Positions 8,830 through 53,763 of a DNA stretch of 64,000 nt are shown in pieces. This DNA comes from Rhizophagus irregularis (lineage: Eukaryota; Glomeromycota; Glomeromycetes; Glomerales; Glomeraceae), in the NCBI RefSeq assembly GCF_026210795.1, contig NC_089452.1, forward strand, positions 2,170,001-2,234,000. Reading direction: 5' to 3'. The first letter of the stretch is position 1; the number at the start of each line of letters is the position of its first letter. The translations under genes and the position numbers were made by a program. The notes under the pieces are model-generated. The model was not told the origin of the DNA. It worked only from the letters and a program-made list of their open reading frames with translations, and searched no databases.

Positions 8830-10065
8830 ATGATACCTCTTTCATCAGGATCAGGAAAAACTTTATATCATAAAAAACGTAAGGAAACTTGTTCAAAACA
8901 CACAAAACACATTCACACAGTAGATCTGCATTATCGTAATTTGGAATCCGCGAAGAACCTCGTAATCGAAACAATTCAAGAATATCATTCTACGGAGATA
9001 TTTCGTATAAGATTTATAACAGGAAGAGGAAATCATATAAATTCGAGTGGAGAGAGAGCGATCCTTTTTAAAAATTTTCCCAGTTGGATGGCAGACGTCT
9101 CGATCAGTCATTTGATCGAAAGTTATGAACAAGGTAATGGGAATTATTTAGTATTCCTTAAATCTTGTCATAATGATGTTCCTACGGTGGATTTGCAACT
9201 TCGTAGATTACCAAACGCAAAAATTATCACAATAAAAACGATTCAAGAATTTCATTCTCAAGAAATATTCGTCATAAAATTTATAACTGGGAAAACGTCA
9301 ATTTATAAAAATTTTATAAAATGGATTTCGAATATTACGATCAATCATTTGATTAAATTTTACGTACGATATGAAGGATATTATTACGTAGGTCTTAAAT
9401 CGGCAGATCACTTAGAAAGCGAAAGAATAGATTCATTTTTGAATGTAGACCTCATTAAACAAAAAGCTCTAATGGACGACGTTGAAGCTCAATGTGTCCT
9501 TGGATTAATGTATCTTGATGGTGAAGGGGTTAAAAAAGACGTACAAGAGGCTTTGAAATGGTTAGTAAAATCTGCTGAAAACGGAAATCTTGATGCACAA
9601 TTACTTGTTGGACAATTATATATAGACGGAATTGGAATTGGAATTAATATAGAGAAAGAAAATGTAACAGCTTTTGATTGGTTTTGTATGGCTGCTGAAC
9701 AAGGTGACGTTAACGCTCAACTATTAGTTGGACATATGTTATACGAAGGAAAAAGCGTTACAAAAAATATTAATGAAGCTTTTAAATGGTTCGAAAAAGC
9801 TGCTAAAAATAACCATGTTAAAGCACAATTTCTTATTGATAGAATTAGGAATGATAATTCCGGTATTAATTCCAGTAATAATTTCGGTAGTAATAATTCC
9901 GGTAGTAATTCCAGTAATAATTCCAGTAGTAATTCCAGTAGTAATTCCAGTAGTAATTCCAGTAGTAATTCCACTAATGATTCTAGTAATTGTTCCGGTA
10001 ATAATTTCAGTAAAAGTGAAGAAATTTGCCAATATAGAAAAAAGAAAATTAGTTTAGTAAGATAA
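8830..10065 (+). CDS. Smr-like / Sel1-repeat fusion protein (two Smr-like copies)
   Basis: Single-exon gene, 411 aa, starting at the ATG at 8830. Residues about 29-112 form a Smr-like domain: VDLH at 31-34 and FITGRGNH at 62-69, the DLH and GxGxH signatures of small MutS-related domains. Residues about 118-191 repeat this fold in degenerate form, with DLQ in place of DLH and FITGKT with the GxGNH loop shortened, so copy 2 has probably lost activity. Residues about 207-340 hold three Sel1-like repeats (GLMYLDGEGVKKD; ALKWLVKSAENGN). The C-terminus (343-398) is an Asn/Ser repeat encoded by tandem AATTCCAGTAGT-like units. Smr domains elsewhere are nucleic-acid binding or nicking modules; Sel1 repeats mediate protein contacts. 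It is a tandem paralogue of the gene at 11260. No introns are needed and the upstream sequence is poly-A/T rich. Confidence 0.85.
   Translation: MIPLSSGSGKTLYHKKRKETCSKHTKHIHTVDLHYRNLESAKNLVIETIQEYHSTEIFRIRFITGRGNHINSSGERAILFKNFPSWMADVSISHLIESYEQGNGNYLVFLKSCHNDVPTVDLQLRRLPNAKIITIKTIQEFHSQEIFVIKFITGKTSIYKNFIKWISNITINHLIKFYVRYEGYYYVGLKSADHLESERIDSFLNVDLIKQKALMDDVEAQCVLGLMYLDGEGVKKDVQEALKWLVKSAENGNLDAQLLVGQLYIDGIGIGINIEKENVTAFDWFCMAAEQGDVNAQLLVGHMLYEGKSVTKNINEAFKWFEKAAKNNHVKAQFLIDRIRNDNSGINSSNNFGSNNSGSNSSNNSSSNSSSNSSSNSSSNSTNDSSNCSGNNFSKSEEICQYRKKKISLVR
9845..10010 (+). repeat. Coding minisatellite, AATTCCAGTAGT-type units
   Basis: Twelve-base units related to AATTCCAGTAGT run in tandem within the 3' end of the Smr/Sel1 gene and encode Asn-Ser-Ser-Ser. 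Units near both edges are diverged (AATTCCGGTAGT, ATTCTAGTAATT). The reading frame stays open through the array, consistent with unit gain and loss in multiples of three bases. Confidence 0.85.
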
Positions 10066-11259: not shown

Positions 11260-12243
11260 ATGTCGCCCGTCTTGACTGAACCTACTAAACAATTTAAAGA
11301 ATGTGAGGAATCTGACCAAAATTACGTTCCTACGATTGATCTTCACGACCATAATTACCAATCCGCAAAAAATATTGTAATAAATACTATTCAAAAATAT
11401 CATTCTTCAAATATAACTCGTGTAAGATTTATAACAGGAAGAGGAAATCATACGAATTCAAACGGAGAACGTGCAATACTTTACAAGACTTTTCCAAAAT
11501 GGATGTCAGATATTACAATCGATCATTTAATCGATAGTTATATACAATGTAATGGTTTTTATTTGGTAATTCTCAAATCATCTGACGAATTAGAAAAAGA
11601 ATTAGAAAATACTTTTTTTGATATTAATATAATTAAGCAAGAAGCTTCAGATGGTGGAGATGAAGCTCAACTTATTCTTGGTTTAATGTACCTTGATGGG
11701 GAGGGAGTTAAAAAAAATATTAACGAAGCTTTGAAATGGCTTACAAAATCAGCAGAGAACGGTAATGTCAATGCCCAAATACTTATGGGACAATTATGCT
11801 TTGATGGAGTTGGTGTTAACATAAAGAAAAAGGATGCAAGAGCTTTCCATTGGTTTCATATGGCAGCTGAGCAAGGTGATGTCAATGCTCAATTAATAGT
11901 TGGCCACCTATTATATGAAGGAAAAGGTGGCAATAAAAATGTTAATGAAGCTTTTAAATGGTTTGAGAAAGCTGCTGAACAAAATGAAGTTAATGCACAA
12001 TTCATTGTTAGTAGAATGTATTTTAATGGTGAAGGAATTCATCAAAGTAATAAAAAAGCATCGAAATGGATTAGAAGAGCTGCCGAAAATGGTCATCCAG
12101 ATGCTCAATTTATTCTTGGACGAATGTATGCTAAAGGAGAAGGAGTTAAACGAAAAAATGCCGAAGAAGCTATAAAATGGTTTAAAAAAGCTGCTGATCA
12201 AGGACATTTGGAAGCTGGAATTATTACGGAAATTTATGTTTAA
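11260..12243 (+). CDS. Smr-like / Sel1-repeat fusion protein (one Smr-like copy)
   Basis: Single-exon gene, 327 aa, ATG at 11260. Residues about 24-107 are a Smr-like domain with IDLH at 26-29 and FITGRGNH at 57-64, both signatures intact. Five Sel1-like repeats follow from about residue 134 to 322 (GLMYLDGEGVKKN, GQLCFDGVGVNIKKK, GHLLYEGKGGNKN, SRMYFNGEGIHQSNK, GRMYAKGEGVKRKN). It is closely related to the gene at 8830 but lacks the second Smr-like copy and the Asn/Ser tail, so the pair arose by tandem duplication with later domain gain or loss. Function is inferred only from domains: a scaffold of Sel1 repeats carrying a possible nucleic-acid-binding Smr module. The protein is soluble, with no signal peptide or membrane segment. 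Confidence 0.87.
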   Translation: MSPVLTEPTKQFKECEESDQNYVPTIDLHDHNYQSAKNIVINTIQKYHSSNITRVRFITGRGNHTNSNGERAILYKTFPKWMSDITIDHLIDSYIQCNGFYLVILKSSDELEKELENTFFDINIIKQEASDGGDEAQLILGLMYLDGEGVKKNINEALKWLTKSAENGNVNAQILMGQLCFDGVGVNIKKKDARAFHWFHMAAEQGDVNAQLIVGHLLYEGKGGNKNVNEAFKWFEKAAEQNEVNAQFIVSRMYFNGEGIHQSNKKASKWIRRAAENGHPDAQFILGRMYAKGEGVKRKNAEEAIKWFKKAADQGHLEAGIITEIYV

Positions 12244-22854: not shown

Positions 22855-23003
22855 TTATATATCATAGTACATACCCAATGACCCCAAATCCTTAATTATA
22901 TAATCACTCATATCTTCACTTACTAGCATTTCATTTGCTTTTACACTAGTAGCTTGCGAATCTTCACCTTCAAGAATTTCATTCAACTTACTAGTATTCT
23001 CAA
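22855..23003 (-). CDS. Alternative or additional 3' terminal exon of the kinase gene
   Basis: Minus-strand 23003-22855 follows an AAACAG acceptor and is open to a TAA. Its protein (SKLNEILEGEDSQAT ... DLGSLGMYYDI) is a duplicate of the tail of the upstream exon (KKLNEILESENLND ... DLRTLGIYYNI). If a GTATAT donor at 23083 (after TTAG) is spliced to this acceptor, both sides are phase 1 and the frame continues. Otherwise translation stops at 23064. Both endings sit in near-identical context, so this is a recent terminal-exon duplication that could give alternative C-termini. Confidence 0.6.
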
Positions 23004-23063: not shown

Positions 23064-26000
23064 TTATATATTATAGTATATACCTAATGTTCTCAAATCT
23101 TTAATCGCACAATCATTCAAATTTTCACTTTCAAGAATTTCATTCAATTTTTTACTAGTAAAATCAAGTAAGCGACTTGTATAACATGCTTTAGGGTGAG
23201 ATTTAGTAACAAGGTTGTTATGCACAATTGGTGCATTTATAAATTCCATAATGTTGCTTTTTAATTCTTCACTGACTTTATAAAATCTGAAAATCCATTT
23301 TTCAATAATTCTTAATACTTCTTCAGAAGATGGTCTTTTTAATGGATCTTCATTCCAACATTTTTTCATTAAATCTACATAACATTGTGGAGTATTTTCA
23401 ATAATTTCAGGACGTTCACCTTTACAAATACTTAAACTAAGTTGAATATCATGTGCTCTATTATTAAATGGTGGTACCCCAGATGTAAACTCCCACATAA
23501 TCATAGAAAAACTATATATATCACTAGCTGGAGTATAAGATTTGCCTCTTAAAACTTCAGGAGCCATAAATGATATAACACCATAAATATCATACTTTTT
23601 CAAAAATGATTTTACAGGTTGACATAATCCTAAATCACTAATATAAAATTTATCCTTATTCTTGTCATTATGATTTAAAATATTACCATCATGAAAATCA
23701 CAATGAATAAGATTTTTTTTATGTATCTTACTAAGTCCAGAAATAATTTCATACAACATATATAATTTTTGATTCCAATTATTTTCAACTATATTTGTTA
23801 AATTTTCTCTTAAGTTGCCCTTATTTGCATAATCCATTACTACCATATATTTTGATGTATTTGGATCTTCTGTGAATCCATAAAAGTTTATAATATTGTT
23901 TGAACTTAAAACACTTGTATGATATTCCCACTATAAAAAATAACAATAATTTATTAATATAAATAAATTTTACTTAAATTAAAAATAGAAAATAATATAC
24001 TATCATACTTCTTTTAAAAATTCATTTAAATTTTCATTTAAATTCTTGTGACATTTAAGAATTACTTCTTCACCTCCATTATTCTTTAACCAAATAGCTT
24101 TATATATAGTACCAAATCCTCCTTCATTAAGGTATTCAACATTTTTAAATTTGTTATAAGGAAACCATCTTAATTTTTTTTGAAAAATAAAATCATCTAT
24201 AATTGTATTTCCACTTTTCCCAAATCTATAAATTTAAATAATTAAAATTATAAATTGTATTATAATTTACACTAAAATAAATTATTACTTACTCTAAAAT
24301 TTAAATAGAAATTTAATGTAATTTAAGACTTAGTTTTTGGATAAATACATAACAACCTATAATTTAGAACTTACCAACTAAAGTAACAGATATTTTTTAA
24401 ATGAAAGAATTCAGTTAACAAATTAATATTATATAAAATATATAAAAATAGAGATACTTACAAGCTAGATCATAAATAATTTTTTAAATAAAGAAATAAA
24501 TTAGTTTAAATTATATGTAAATATTATAAGTAACAAATAATAATATTATAATAGAATTAAATAAATAACTTACCATCTATGAAATAAATTTTTAAATAAG
24601 GAAATTAGTTAGTTTAAATTATATGTAAATATTATTATGACAATGAGTAATAATAGAATTAAATAAATATTAACTTACCAGCTATGATATAATTTTTTAA
24701 AATAAAGAAATTAGTTAGTTTAAATTACACATAAATATTAATAATGGAATAAATAAATGACTTATAACTTATAACTTACCAACTAAAAGAAATTACAAAT
24801 AATTTTTTAAATAAAGAAATTAGTTAGTTTAAATTATATGTAAATATTATAACAGTAAGTAATAATAGAATTAAATAAATAACTTACACCCTATATTATT
24901 AATAATTTAAAGAAATTAGCTAGTTTAAATTATATGTAAAGATTATAACAACAAGTAATAATAGAATTAAATAAATAACTTACACCCTATATTATTTAAT
25001 AATTTTTTAAATAAAGAAATTAGTTAGTTTAAATTACACATAAATATTAATAATGGAAATAAATAAATAACTTATAAATTACCAACTAAAAGAAATTACA
25101 AATAATTTTTTAAATAAAAAAATAAATTAGTTTAAATTATATGTAAATATTATAACAGTAAGTAATAATAGAATTAAGTAAATAACTTACACCCTATATT
25201 ATTTAATAATTTTTTAAATAAAGAAATAGTTAATTTAAATTATATATAAATATTATAAAAATAGGTAATAATAGTATTAAATAAATAACTTACACCCTAT
25301 ATTATTTAATAATTTTTTAAATAAAGAAATTAATTAGTTTAAATTATATGTAAATATTATAATAATAAGTGATAATAAAATTAAAAAATAACTTACGGGC
25401 TATATTATTTAATAATTTTTTGAATAAAGAAATTAGATAGTTTAAATTATATGTAAATATTATAACAATAAGTAATAATAGAATTAAATAAATAACTTAC
25501 ACCCTATATTATTTAATAATTTTTAAATAAAGAAATTAGAAATATTATAACAATAACAATAAGTATTAATAGAATTAAATAAATAACTTATAGTAACTTA
25601 CAAACTAAAAGAAATTACAAATAATTTTTTAAATAAAGAAATTAGATAGTTTAAATTATATGTAAACATTATTACAATAAATAATAATAGAATTAAATAA
25701 ATAACTTATAACTTACAATCTATTAAATAAAGAAATCAGTTAGATTAAATTATGTAAATATTATATCAATATGTAATAATAGAATTAAACAAATAACTTA
25801 CTCTCTATATTATTTAATAATATTTTAAATAAAGAAATTAGTTAGTTTAAATTGTATGTAAATATTATAATAATAAGTAATAATAAAATTAAATAAATAA
25901 CTTACCATCTAGAGATTAGTTAGTTTAAATTATTTGTAAATATTATAACAATAAGTAATAATAAAATTAAATAAATAACTTACACACTGTATTATTTAAT

Positions 26001-27848
26001 AATTTTTTAAATAAAGGAATTAGTTAGTTTAAATTATATGTAAGGATTGTAATAATATTAAATAAATAACTTATAACTTACGATCTATTAAATAAAGAAA
26101 TTAGTTAGTTTAAATTATTTGTAAATATTATAACAATAAGTAATAATAGAATCAAATAAATAACTTACTCCCTATATTATTTAATAATTTTTAAATTAGT
26201 TAGTTTAAGTTATATGTAAATAATAACAAAATAAACTTACGAGCTATATTATTTAAATAAAGAAATTAATTAATTTAAATTATATGTAAATATTATAATA
26301 ATAAGTGATAATAGAATTAAATAACTTACTCTCTATATTATTTAATAATTTTTTAAATAAAGAAATTAATTAGTATATAACAATAAGTAATAATAGAATT
26401 AAATAAATAACTTACCATCTATGAAATAATTTTTTAGATAAAGAAATTAGTTAGTTTAAATTATATGTAAATATTATAACTATAAATAATAATAGAATAA
26501 CTTACCATCTATGAAATAATTTTTTAAATAAAGAATTAGTTAGTTTAAATTTTATGTAAATATTATAATAAGTTATAACAATAAGTAATAATAGAATTAA
26601 ATAAATAACTTACTATCTATGAAATAATTTTTTAAATAAAGAAATAAATTAGTTCAAATTATATTATAACAATAAGTAATAATAGAATTAAATAAATAAC
26701 TTACCATCTATGAAATAATTTTTTAAATAAAGAAATTAGTTAGTTTAAATTATATGTAAATATTATAACAATAAGTAATAATAAAATTAAATAAATAACT
26801 TACACCCTAGTATATTATTTCAGTTAATAATTTTAAATAAAGAAATTTGTTAGTTTAAATTATATGTAAATATTATAACAATAAGTAATAATAATAGAAT
26901 TAAATAAATAACTTACTCCCTATATTGTTGAATAATTTTTAAATAAAGAATTTAGTTAAATTATATAGATAATATAAATATAGTTATCATATTATCCATA
27001 TAACTTACACCCTGTAGTATTATTAATTAGTTAGATATAAAGATAACATAAAAGTATTTACTGCAAATTATATATATTACTTACAATCTAGTTATTTAAT
27101 TTAAGAATATAATTAGTTATATTATATAGAAACAAATAAATATAATATATATATTGTAACTTACTATCTGTAATATAATTAATTATTAAATAGTTATTTA
27201 AATAAAGAATTTAGTTATTAACTAAAGATTTAAATAACTGATAACTTACCAACTACAGTATTATTAATCATTAAGTAAATTATTCAGTTTATATGGAATA
27301 CAATAAAAGTAATGAGCAATTCATTATAATAACTTACGAGCTAAATATTTAATATAATTTTTATATAATATAGTTAGTCTAAATTATATTTGCAAATTAT
27401 ATGATGTATAATTATAAATAGTATTTGAATTGTTTATAAATAAAAATTTAATATTTCAGCTTATTTTATGTACCTTTAGATTCCTCAGTGCCAATTTCTT
27501 CAAATTCCTCAATACTACTTCTTTCAAATTCTTCAGTGCCACTTACCACAAATTCTCCCGTGCTACTTCCTTCAAATTCTTCAAATTCTTCAATATTACT
27601 GGAAACTAGTTTTGTTATATTGCAAATTTGGTTTAATTATATTTTATTATTTACAATTAAATTTTTTTAATAAATAAAAATCTTAATATTTCAACTTTGT
27701 TTTGTGTATTATATTTACCTTCAGGTTCTTTGGTGTCGCACAAAACTAGTTTTATTATATTGCAAGTTTGTTTTAATCATTTTGAATAGTTCTAATTTAT
27801 ATTATTATTCATGTTATAGATTTTACCTTTACCAATACATTGGTCCAT
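23064..27848 (-). CDS. Protein kinase gene with a 33-member microexon array
   Basis: Proposed minus-strand exons: 27827-27848 (ATG), 27719-27745, 27474-27605, thirty-two 3-nt exons from 27338 to 24375, a 1-nt exon at 24293, 24009-24225 and 23064-23930. They sum to 1362 nt, 453 aa plus stop. The first three exons, joined in phase 1, encode MDQCIGK, VLCDTKEPE and an acidic repeat (SNIEEFEEFEGSS ... TEEFERSSIEEFEE). The kinase part has a Gly-loop (LNEGGFGTIYKAIW), the lysine in VILK, a catalytic loop HCDFHDGNIL, a DLG in place of DFG (ISDLGLC), and FMAPEVLRG. HCD in place of HRD and the HxDFHxGN style match the kinases expanded in Rhizophagus; the sister gene at 52155 has HKDFHSGNIL. The usual Cys-x2-Cys N-terminus of that family is not seen here; its place is taken by the microexon array. 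The kinase exons are secure; the 5' assembly is inferred from splice sites and phase. Confidence 0.7.
24293..27340 (-). repeat. Tandem intron array with 32 three-nucleotide exons and one single-nucleotide exon
   Basis: The unit, 72-113 bp and about 95 bp on average, reads on the minus strand: TAG or CAG, three bases, GTAAGT, an AT-rich stretch, then CTAAC about 30-40 bases before the next acceptor. Triplets in transcript order start CTC (27338-27340), TTG (27250), ATA (27165), ATT (27085), GGT (27009), GGA (26917), GGT (26804), ATG (26705). Others are AGA (26330), CCC (25397), TTT (25602), TGT (25984), CTG (24679), CTT (24462); the last is TTG (24375-24377). One unit uses GTAATT as donor (25082). 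The last member is a single A at 24293 between TTTTAG and GTAAGT. Triplets vary much more than the splice signals around them. In the phase set by the flanking exons the reading has no stop. Confidence 0.75.
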
Positions 27849-28669: not shown

Positions 28670-29190
28670 AATAGGACATGATGGATGATGAAAAAGAGTG
28701 ATGGGAGACGAAAAGGAGTGATGGGAGACGAAGAGGAGTGATGGGTAACGAAAAGAAGTGATGGATGACGAAAAGAAGTGATGGGAGACGAAAAGGAGTG
28801 ATGGGAGACGAAGAGGAGTGATGGGTGATGGAAAGGAGTGATGGATGACGAAGAGGAGTGATGGGAGACGAAAAGGAGTGATTAGAGACAAAATGGAGTG
28901 ATGAAGACGAAGAGGAGTGATGGGAGACGAAAAGGAATGATGGGAGACGAAAAGGAGTGATGGGAGACGAAAAGGAGTGATGGGAGACGAAAAAAAGTGA
29001 TAGAAGACAAAAGAAGTAATGGGAGACGAAAAGGAGTGATGGGAGACGAAAAGGAGTGATGGATGACGAAAAGGAATGATGGGAGACGAAAAGGAATGAT
29101 GAAAGATAAAGAGGAGTGATGAGAGACGAAAAGAAGTAATGGAAATGAAAAGAAGTGATTGAGAGACAAAAGAAATGATGGGAACTAAAT
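28670..29190. repeat. 20-bp minisatellite
   Basis: Twenty-base units of the type GATGGGAGACGAAAAGGAGT run for about 500 bp, most regular at 28690-29060 and decaying at both ends, with variants GATGACGAA and GAAGAGGAGT. Because the period is not a multiple of three, a minus-strand frame of about 300 codons arises, cycling through all three frames of the repeat (ITPFRLP / SLLFVSH / HSFSSP). I regard that ORF as a product of the repeat. Confidence 0.9.
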
Positions 29191-52154: not shown

Positions 52155-53763
52155 ATGGAAACCGAACTTAGTAAATTAAAAATCTCAGATAATCATAAAA
52201 ATTGTTCGTATTGTAATAAACCCTTTACTGAAGAATTATGGTGTAAAGAATGTGACCCATTTAGAATAATGGAAGGATGGACCAGTGGAAATTCTGGTAT
52301 TGATAAGTTTATAAAAGATACAATGTATAATGCAAGGAATGATAGTTATAATGGTTATAATGGTTATAATTTTCTTGAATGGGTACCACTTTATAACTTT
52401 TTAAATATAGAAGCAATTGGTGAAGGTGGATTTGCCAAAGTATATTCTGCAAGTTGGTATAATGGTAAATCAGCATATGAATATGTTCATGGAATTTGGA
52501 AAAAAAGAGAACCTAAACCTACGAAAGTTGCTTTGAAAAGATTAAATGGATCACAGAATATCTCAGATAAATATTTAAATGAAGTACGTTTTTATATATA
52601 TTGTATTTATTTCATTTAGGTGTTTAATATTAAGAATCCTTTAAATTATTTTATTTTAACTTTATTAAAATATAGCTTAAAATACATTGGGAAATTTCTA
52701 ATAAAAATGGATTAAAATTTTATGGATTAACTAAATGCCCAAAAACTAAAGAATTTATGATGATTATGGAATTTGCTAATAAAGGAAGTTTGAGAAGTAA
52801 TCTTTCAAATAACTTTAACAACACTACGTGGGGAAATAAAATTAATTGTTTATTTCATATATTATTTGGATTAGATTCATTACATGAATTAGGATATTGT
52901 CATAAAGATTTTCATAGTGGGAATATTTTACAAATTTATGACAATTTTAATCAAATTTCGGACTTTGGATTATCAGGACCAGCAAATGAACAAAAATCAG
53001 ATGATAAAGTAGTATATGGAGTAATGCCATATATTGCACCAGAAGTCTTAAACGGAGAACCATATACATCATCATCCGATATTTATAGTGTAGGTGTAAT
53101 TATGGCCGAATTATCATCAGGAAGACCACCTTTTTACAATAAAAAACATGATTTAAATTTAGCATTAGCTATATGTAATGGACTCAGACCAGAATTTGGA
53201 AAAGGAACTCCTGAATTTTATAAGAAATTAGCTTATAAATGCATGAATGCCAATCCAAATGAAAGACCAACAGCCGAAGAATTAAGGAATATATTTAATT
53301 TTTGGGATAATTCTATTAAAGGCATAAATAATGACAGATTCGGTTATAAAGGAAAAGAAATTAAAGCGGCATTTGAAGAAGCTGATAAGGAAATACCAAA
53401 TATCTTAACTTCATATAAAAAGAATTCAGATGCTGTATATACTAGTAGGGCGTTTACATTTAGTAATTTATTACCAAAACCCGTTAATTCATCCATTATT
53501 ACTTCATATGTTAATAATGAAGGTATTTTCTGTTTTTAAACATTTTTATTTTTTTAATAATTGATAATCATTAACTTTTTATTGCTTTAATAGTTTGTGA
53601 CTCTCAATTAATCGACTTGGAAATATCTAATTCAATACAATTAAGAGGTACATTAAACATAATTTACCACTTATTTTTATACATTTAAATATACTAATAA
53701 TATTTATATTATTTATATTATTTATATTGCTGATATTTAGATACCGACGATGAAATCAATTGA
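52155..53763 (+). CDS. Serine/threonine/tyrosine-type protein kinase, four exons
   Basis: Exons 52155-52583, 52676-53522, 53594-53647 and 53741-53763 give 1353 nt, 450 aa. The N-terminus has C17, C20, C30 and C33 (CSYC ... WCKEC), a putative zinc knuckle usual in this family, then GWTSGNSGIDKFIKD. Kinase motifs: Gly-loop IGEGGFAKVYSASW (87-101), K128 in VALK, catalytic loop HKDFHSGNIL, DFG in ISDFGLS, MPYIAPEVL and a C-lobe with the conserved Arg in NPNERPTAEEL. HKD in place of HRD is typical of the expanded fungal kinase group. The last two exons (VCDSQLIDLEI, DTDDEIN) were placed by phase-1 GT-AG junctions and by resemblance to the usual tail. The ATG at 52155 was chosen because the frame upstream has only a TTG. 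It is probably a cytosolic signalling kinase; the substrate is unknown. Confidence 0.85.

Follow-up and report, generated by a model that had tools for sequence, protein, structure and literature searches.

Predicted arrays of one-codon exons in a large kinase family of Rhizophagus irregularis

Can a segment of protein be encoded one codon at a time, with an intron between each codon and the next? The question is raised by a gene on the minus strand of a 64,000-nucleotide stretch of the Rhizophagus irregularis genome (positions 2170001-2234000 of contig C24; 26.7% G+C), referred to here as the window, in which a first-pass annotation had proposed an array of about 32 three-nucleotide exons inside a kinase gene. 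We analysed this gene and similar loci in the single genome to which it belongs (146.7 Mb in 32 contigs). Judged from their sequence, more than 100 genes for kinases, together with one or more genes unrelated to them, appear to encode a stretch of protein with one codon per exon.

Exon geometry and reading frame of the window gene

The minus strand of the window carries exactly 32 units of the form [CT]AG-NNN-GTAAGT, with the donor GTAAGT in 31 and GTAATT in one (at 25085), and the rest of the window has no strict three-nucleotide unit on either of its strands. The exon starts run from 27340 to 24377 with a spacing of 72-115 nucleotides (nt), and the intervening introns are 69-112 nt long. The branch-point motif CTAAC had been described as present in most units; its exact form is found in only 15 of the 32 introns, although a CTAAY/TTAAC/CTGAY-like motif occurs in 28. 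The six other introns of the gene have weaker donors (GTAAAA, GTAAAT, GTACAT, GTATGA, GTATAT and GTATGT), none of them GTAAGT (0/6).

The array is followed by a 1-nt exon, A, at 24293 (TTTTAG-A-GTAAGT) and then by a kinase exon that begins at 24225. The exon at 27605-27474 leaves one base, and the frame is regained once the 96 nt of triplets, the single nucleotide and the opening base of the kinase exon are added. The first-pass annotation had anticipated both this phase and the entry into the kinase through the 1-nt exon, and joining the exons indeed yields an open frame of 490 residues that starts at an ATG (27848) and is uninterrupted by stops. Its gene structure was correct for the exon at 27474-27605 but lacked two further coding exons upstream (27848-27827 and 27745-27719); comparison with paralogs recovered the three ordinary upstream exons (MDQCIGK/G, V-LCDTKEPE/G and V-SSNIEEFE...ESK/G). 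The array shares phase 1 with all the upstream junctions, so that each array codon consists of the last base of one triplet and the first two of the next. The peptides predicted in this phase, among them ALDNWWR, YDNDETR, NLYENFWSR and WFGWFADAFEFGK, each span several introns. Coordinates are collected in Table 1; the gene ends are inferred rather than mapped.

The joined protein scores 148 bits with PF07714, above the curated cut-off of 23.1, resembles the kinases CTR1, RIPK1 and TAK1, and contains predicted catalytic residues (the VILK lysine, HCDFHDGN and DLG). No hydrophobic leader or signal peptide was seen at the N-terminus MDQCIGK by eye, an inspection made with no prediction program. 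In paralogs exon 1 reads MGQCIGK, MGQCISK, MGQSNGK or MAQSNDK; several begin with MGQC, which resembles a lipid-attachment signal, others with MA, and the window gene with MD. PF07714 has been reported as the commonest expanded motif in Rhizophagus irregularis (149.8 Mb, 27.9% G+C; PMC6123716). Those expanded kinases share their Pfam domain with the window kinase, and the passages of that paper on the expansion make no mention of exon arrays.

Table 1. Features of the window gene (window coordinates) and three further arrays (contig coordinates)
Feature	Position	Strand	Remarks
Exon 1	27827..27848	-	MDQCIGK/G; ATG, paralog-conserved, donor GTAAAA, leaves 1 base
Exon 2	27719..27745	-	V-LCDTKEPE/G; conserved in paralogs at equal relative place; phase 1-1
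Exon 3	27474..27605	-	Acidic repeats VSSNIEEFE...ESK/G; donor GTACAT; sets array phase 1
Array, 32 three-nucleotide exons	24375..27340	-	Reads (A)LDNWWRYDNDETRNLYENFWSRWFGWFADAF
3-nt exon 1 CTC	27338..27340	-	Conserved start
3-nt exon 2 TTG	27250..27252	-	
3-nt exon 3 ATA	27165..27167	-	
3-nt exon 4 ATT	27085..27087	-	Conserved start, 14/14 arrays with this acceptor
3-nt exon 5 GGT	27009..27011	-	Conserved start, 14/14 arrays with this acceptor
3-nt exon 6 GGA	26917..26919	-	
3-nt exon 7 GGT	26804..26806	-	
3-nt exon 8 ATG	26705..26707	-	
3-nt exon 9 ATA	26614..26616	-	
3-nt exon 10 ATG	26506..26508	-	
3-nt exon 11 ATG	26416..26418	-	
3-nt exon 12 AGA	26330..26332	-	
3-nt exon 13 CTC	26241..26243	-	
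3-nt exon 14 GGA	26169..26171	-	
3-nt exon 15 ATC	26082..26084	-	
3-nt exon 16 TGT	25984..25986	-	
3-nt exon 17 ATG	25906..25908	-	
3-nt exon 18 AGA	25802..25804	-	
3-nt exon 19 ATT	25717..25719	-	
3-nt exon 20 TTT	25602..25604	-	
3-nt exon 21 GGT	25501..25503	-	
3-nt exon 22 CCC	25397..25399	-	
3-nt exon 23 GGT	25294..25296	-	
3-nt exon 24 GGT	25191..25193	-	
3-nt exon 25 TTG	25083..25085	-	Donor GTAATT
3-nt exon 26 GGT	24984..24986	-	
3-nt exon 27 GGT	24888..24890	-	
3-nt exon 28 TTG	24780..24782	-	
3-nt exon 29 CTG	24679..24681	-	
3-nt exon 30 ATG	24574..24576	-	
3-nt exon 31 CTT	24462..24464	-	Conserved end
3-nt exon 32 TTG	24375..24377	-	Conserved end
1-nt exon A	24293..24293	-	Required for frame
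Kinase N-lobe exon	24009..24225	-	FGKSGNTIIDDF...GGFGTIYKA...KE
Main kinase exon	23084..23930	-	PF07714 E=4.1e-43 over joined protein
Downstream coding exon, C-terminal tail	22875..23003	-	Frame continues; boundaries inferred
L002 array	C1:1723678-1731439 (L002 1179-8940)		68 triplets, before coiled-coil exon; CAG acceptors, different intron family
L078 array	C10:2418500-2422700		Other intron family, non-kinase; two phases open
L079 array	C17:3901900-3904500		Other intron family, before different kinase type; too short to fix phase

Arrays across the genome

The pattern YAGNNNGTAAGT matches the genome at 7,430 places, against 2,257 for the reversed pattern. Adjacent pairs of strict 3-nt units number 3,024, with 2 in the reversed control, and the same pair pattern finds 0 matches with 4-nt exons and 8 with 6-nt exons; these controls rule out chance or a repeat artefact as the source of the arrays. 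Three of the eight 6-nt matches contain an ATTCTT unit known from the ends of arrays such as L054 (C24:851010-856510) and L055 (C24:970282-975782), where the final units include 6-nt exons of this sequence, like two fused codons. The terminal pair of TTG and the 1-nt exon A is found 109 times, spread over most contigs (control, 0). In 28 of 30 such loci inspected it leads into one and the same kinase exon with the phase unchanged, whereas the other phases soon run into stops. A protein search of the genome gives at least 151 matches to the kinase exon.

Loci were fetched and parsed into exon chains with a splice-site model, which found 1,114 exons in 49 loci, 1,060 of them 3 nt and 37 of them 1 nt long, and chains of 16-57 units in nearly all of the longer loci. 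GTAAGT is the donor of 932 of the 1,060 array units. Since the parser penalises other exon lengths, the pattern counts provide an independent test of exon size. Where units seemed to be missing from an array, the cause was mostly a variant donor (GTAAAT, GTGAGT, GTTAGT, GCAAGT) and not a gap.

Arrays are also found outside the main kinase family (Table 1). The phase of one of them, L002, is unlike that of the kinases: a codon takes bases 2-3 of one triplet and base 1 of the next. A single phase is open, MDERLWEELEESLKGLLPPTPPPPPLPGRLP..., and its translation, MDERLWEELEESLKGLLPPTPPPPPLPGRLPLGTKIPSPPPLPGRLPIKKIINERNERPRRRHAIKG, resembles a real protein, with a predicted N-terminus that has an acidic helix-like start followed by repeated proline motifs, and predicted peptides that span several introns (LWEELEESLK, GLLPPTPPPPPLPGR). 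Further units may be concealed in the L002 array, which has two gaps (218 and 240 nt).

Selection on the ordered series of triplets

Are the triplets translated, and are all of them? We counted stops in the predicted phase in a sample of 1,037 triplets with 971 neighbour junctions, using 5,000 within-array triplet shuffles as the null. Neighbouring triplets form 2 stops in 971 junctions, while the shuffles give 27.4 +/- 4.0 with a minimum of 11. Avoidance is absent from the alternative phase (145 stops, 138 expected), and in the predicted phase it falls away with distance: the stop rate is 0.2% between triplets one position apart and 2.3-4.2% at distances 2-10, against an expectation of about 2.8%. 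Neighbours read in reversed order, which preserves the clustering of like units, give 34 stops, and this control rules out clustering as the source of the avoidance. Retention of introns with the frame kept was also rejected, as intron lengths modulo 3 are roughly even. Because stop avoidance is confined to immediate neighbours, selection acts on the full ordered series, and every unit is probably included, in order, as the main mode of splicing.

This neighbour-only avoidance is the strongest evidence for the predicted coding role of the arrays. The arrays might otherwise be noncoding, a splice-site-like tandem repeat in a long intron or 5' region that is removed stepwise, much as in recursive splicing, or skipped, with translation beginning downstream. 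The units are AT-rich, intron-like and repeated, and the case is known from DNA alone, which would suit such a view. We nevertheless consider it highly improbable in light of the stop data, the fixed triplets at the array ends described below, the frame match through the 1-nt exon in 28/30 loci, and the L002 array, where just one phase is open and encodes a coherent peptide.

The same result is the main evidence against predicted splicing of subsets. The first-pass annotation had suggested that any subset of triplets could be included, as a combinatorial source of many protein variants per gene; the triplets are frame-neutral, a skip of a single unit creates a stop in only 21 of 905 cases (about 97% are stop-free), and strong, similar splice sites are common to all units. 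As the main mode, however, inclusion of any subset lacks support: stops are at chance level at distances 2-10, with avoidance at distance 1 only, and the diversity that it would supply is already present in DNA between genes. We therefore regard combinatorial splicing as improbable. Rare or unselected skipping of units may be compatible with the stop data.

Fixed ends, a variable middle and how they may arise

Array starts are conserved (A-L/F-x-D/N-W; CTC-TTR-NNN-ATT-GGT), as are array ends (CTT-TTG-A; F-E-F-G-K-S-G), and the end-unit triplets ATT, GGT, CTT and TTG have a heterozygosity near zero. Mid-array units of the commonest intron class have a heterozygosity of 0.43-0.66 per triplet site, while that of the ten intron bases flanking the triplet on each side is 0.09-0.13. 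Among unit pairs from different arrays with identical 78-nt flanks (1,426 pairs from 91 array pairs, not independent of one another), 40% of triplet sites differ; weighted by array pair, the values at the three triplet sites are 0.45, 0.25 and 0.58. Some introns, 81-108 nt long, recur unchanged over their whole length in as many as nine arrays, although the triplets that flank them differ on both sides. Paralogs that are 93-96% identical over about 1.2-1.3 kb share triplet order no more than shuffles do (excess -0.19, 16 pairs). As read from the genome, the diversity lies in the DNA and distinguishes one gene from another, not one splice form from another.

The least variable triplet site is the third base of the codon in the reading phase, as selection on amino acids would predict, although that base is also linked to intron class. 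This bears on whether the triplets could instead be targets of hypermutation, with neither recombination nor selection needed. A divergence of 40% next to unchanged 78-nt flanks is what such targeting might produce; we think it very unlikely, given that end units of equal geometry are invariant and that a codon third base that changes least is better explained by amino-acid selection, with a contribution from intron class.

Another possibility is that introner-like mobile introns were inserted repeatedly into an ordinary exon, leaving the triplets as remnants of ancestral coding sequence. Identical introns do lie beside different triplets in several arrays, and two unrelated genes, with differing intron families and phases, are affected. 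But insertion at exact 3-nt intervals would go unexplained, triplets are tied to intron-end classes as units, and paralogs share the array ends and not the triplet order, so the middle is not old conserved sequence. As an account of the present arrays this seems unlikely to us; mobile introns could be the origin of the first ones.

We favour, with considerable though not full confidence, the explanation that constitutively spliced one-codon exons let a protein segment diversify in frame through duplication and exchange of units. The 3-nt exons, set between full-strength introns of about 95 nt, would be included constitutively and in order. Two splicing complexes cannot fit on a 3-nt exon together, so the introns are probably removed one by one, and with each ligation the next GTAAGT would become the 5' splice site for the step that follows. 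As that donor signal is wholly intronic, the triplet is free to vary. The near-identical introns may serve as substrates for recombination, by which recombination, duplication or loss would add, remove or swap single codons, each event changing the protein by about one codon while preserving frame and splicing. The conserved ends would anchor the variable middle ahead of a cytosolic kinase, and selection for novelty would maintain the difference among middle triplets. The variable segment, predicted to lie between a short N-terminus and the kinase, most likely sets binding or recognition, or the choice of partner. More tentatively, the arrays might form an active diversification system, in which exchange of units among genes or nuclei continually rewrites the recognition peptide of more than 100 kinases and gives a multinucleate fungus a heritable repertoire for self, partner and invader; we hold this to be possible rather than probable.

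Several points weigh against this explanation. Every splice event in it is deduced from DNA alone. A few units parse as 2-, 4-, 6-, 9- or 12-nt exons, including frame-breaking ones in L039 and L045; gene decay or mistakes of the parser may account for them. Two otherwise regular arrays, L041 and L049, contain junction stops (CGT-AAC, ATT-AGA) and may be decayed genes or have skipped units. The phase of L078, an incomplete array, is not unique. As to the variable middle, the choice of identical flanks selects those least changed and somewhat overstates the contrast, ungapped comparison inflates flank divergence distant from the exons, and triplet choice is partly linked to intron class.

How do the arrays compare with known systems? 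Those described that come nearest are the micro-exon genes of Schistosoma and isolated exons of 1-3 nt. The micro-exon genes have exons of 6-81 bp (3 bp in the abstract), most of 15 bp, and introns that range from 100 to about 5,000 bp; their products are secreted and their transcripts alternatively spliced (PMC10526429). They likewise have runs of short, mostly frame-neutral exons, form variable protein families and are hard to annotate automatically (PMC10526429), and in the arrays, too, many short frame-neutral exons make up a good part of the coding region. The arrays differ in that nearly every exon is 3 nt long, with runs of 16-57 such exons in most kinase arrays and of 68 in L002, in their near-identical introns of about 95 nt, in belonging to a kinase family with no obvious signal peptide, and in favouring full inclusion; selection for skip-compatible junctions, as for exon skipping of the micro-exon gene type, was not detected in the stop test, which uses DNA only. 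Isolated microexons demonstrate that splicing can handle exons as short as 1-3 nt: sequential, two-step removal of the flanking introns has been proposed for a 1-nt exon of Arabidopsis APC11 (PMC4674806), and Drosophila homothorax has a 3-bp alternative microexon (PMC7392893). These are single exons in single genes, without arrays or hypervariability. Ratchet points of recursive splicing also place a donor beside an acceptor, each ligation creating the next 5' splice site, but they add 0 nt and split one long intron, whereas the arrays would add a codon per step; the window holds 0 zero-length exons (YAG and GTAAGT juxtaposed) against 31 strict 3-nt units. Fungal introners and introner-like elements are near-identical introns multiplied in a genome (PMC4457414, PMC9860276), and near-identical introns are found in several genes here as well; introners insert across many genes, whereas the arrays are tandem units with an exact 3-nt spacing. 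No report of arrays of 3-nt exons, in Rhizophagus or otherwise, was found in open-access PMC papers, a search outside which preprints and subscription journals lay, and such arrays may have been described elsewhere.

If transcripts confirm the arrays, more than 100 genes would each have dozens of successive codons set apart singly by introns, and 1-nt exons would be a regular component of the architecture. This would lower the limit for the size of a routine exon, offer an ideal system for studying how the spliceosome handles back-to-back introns, and provide a route by which a protein segment evolves by single codons and stays in frame. The gene models and proteomes now available for this fungus would then probably lack a hypervariable segment in a kinase family of very large size, a segment that may bear on recognition in an apparent major plant symbiont.

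Other features of the window were noted in passing. About 0.8 kb upstream of kinase exon 1, positions 28679-29183 hold some 25 copies of a 20-bp repeat, TGATGGGAGACGAAAAGGAG, crossed by a minus-strand open reading frame of 299 codons that is probably due to chance. A second kinase exon, MMIMEFANKGSLRSNLSNN..., lies on the plus strand at 52757-53539, with no 3-nt exon array nearby within the window. Two adjacent, related plus-strand genes, at 8830-10065 and 11260-12243, each combine a short N-terminal domain with what look by eye like Sel1-like repeats, and the gene at 8830-10065 terminates in a long Ser/Asn-rich tract of 12-bp repeats.

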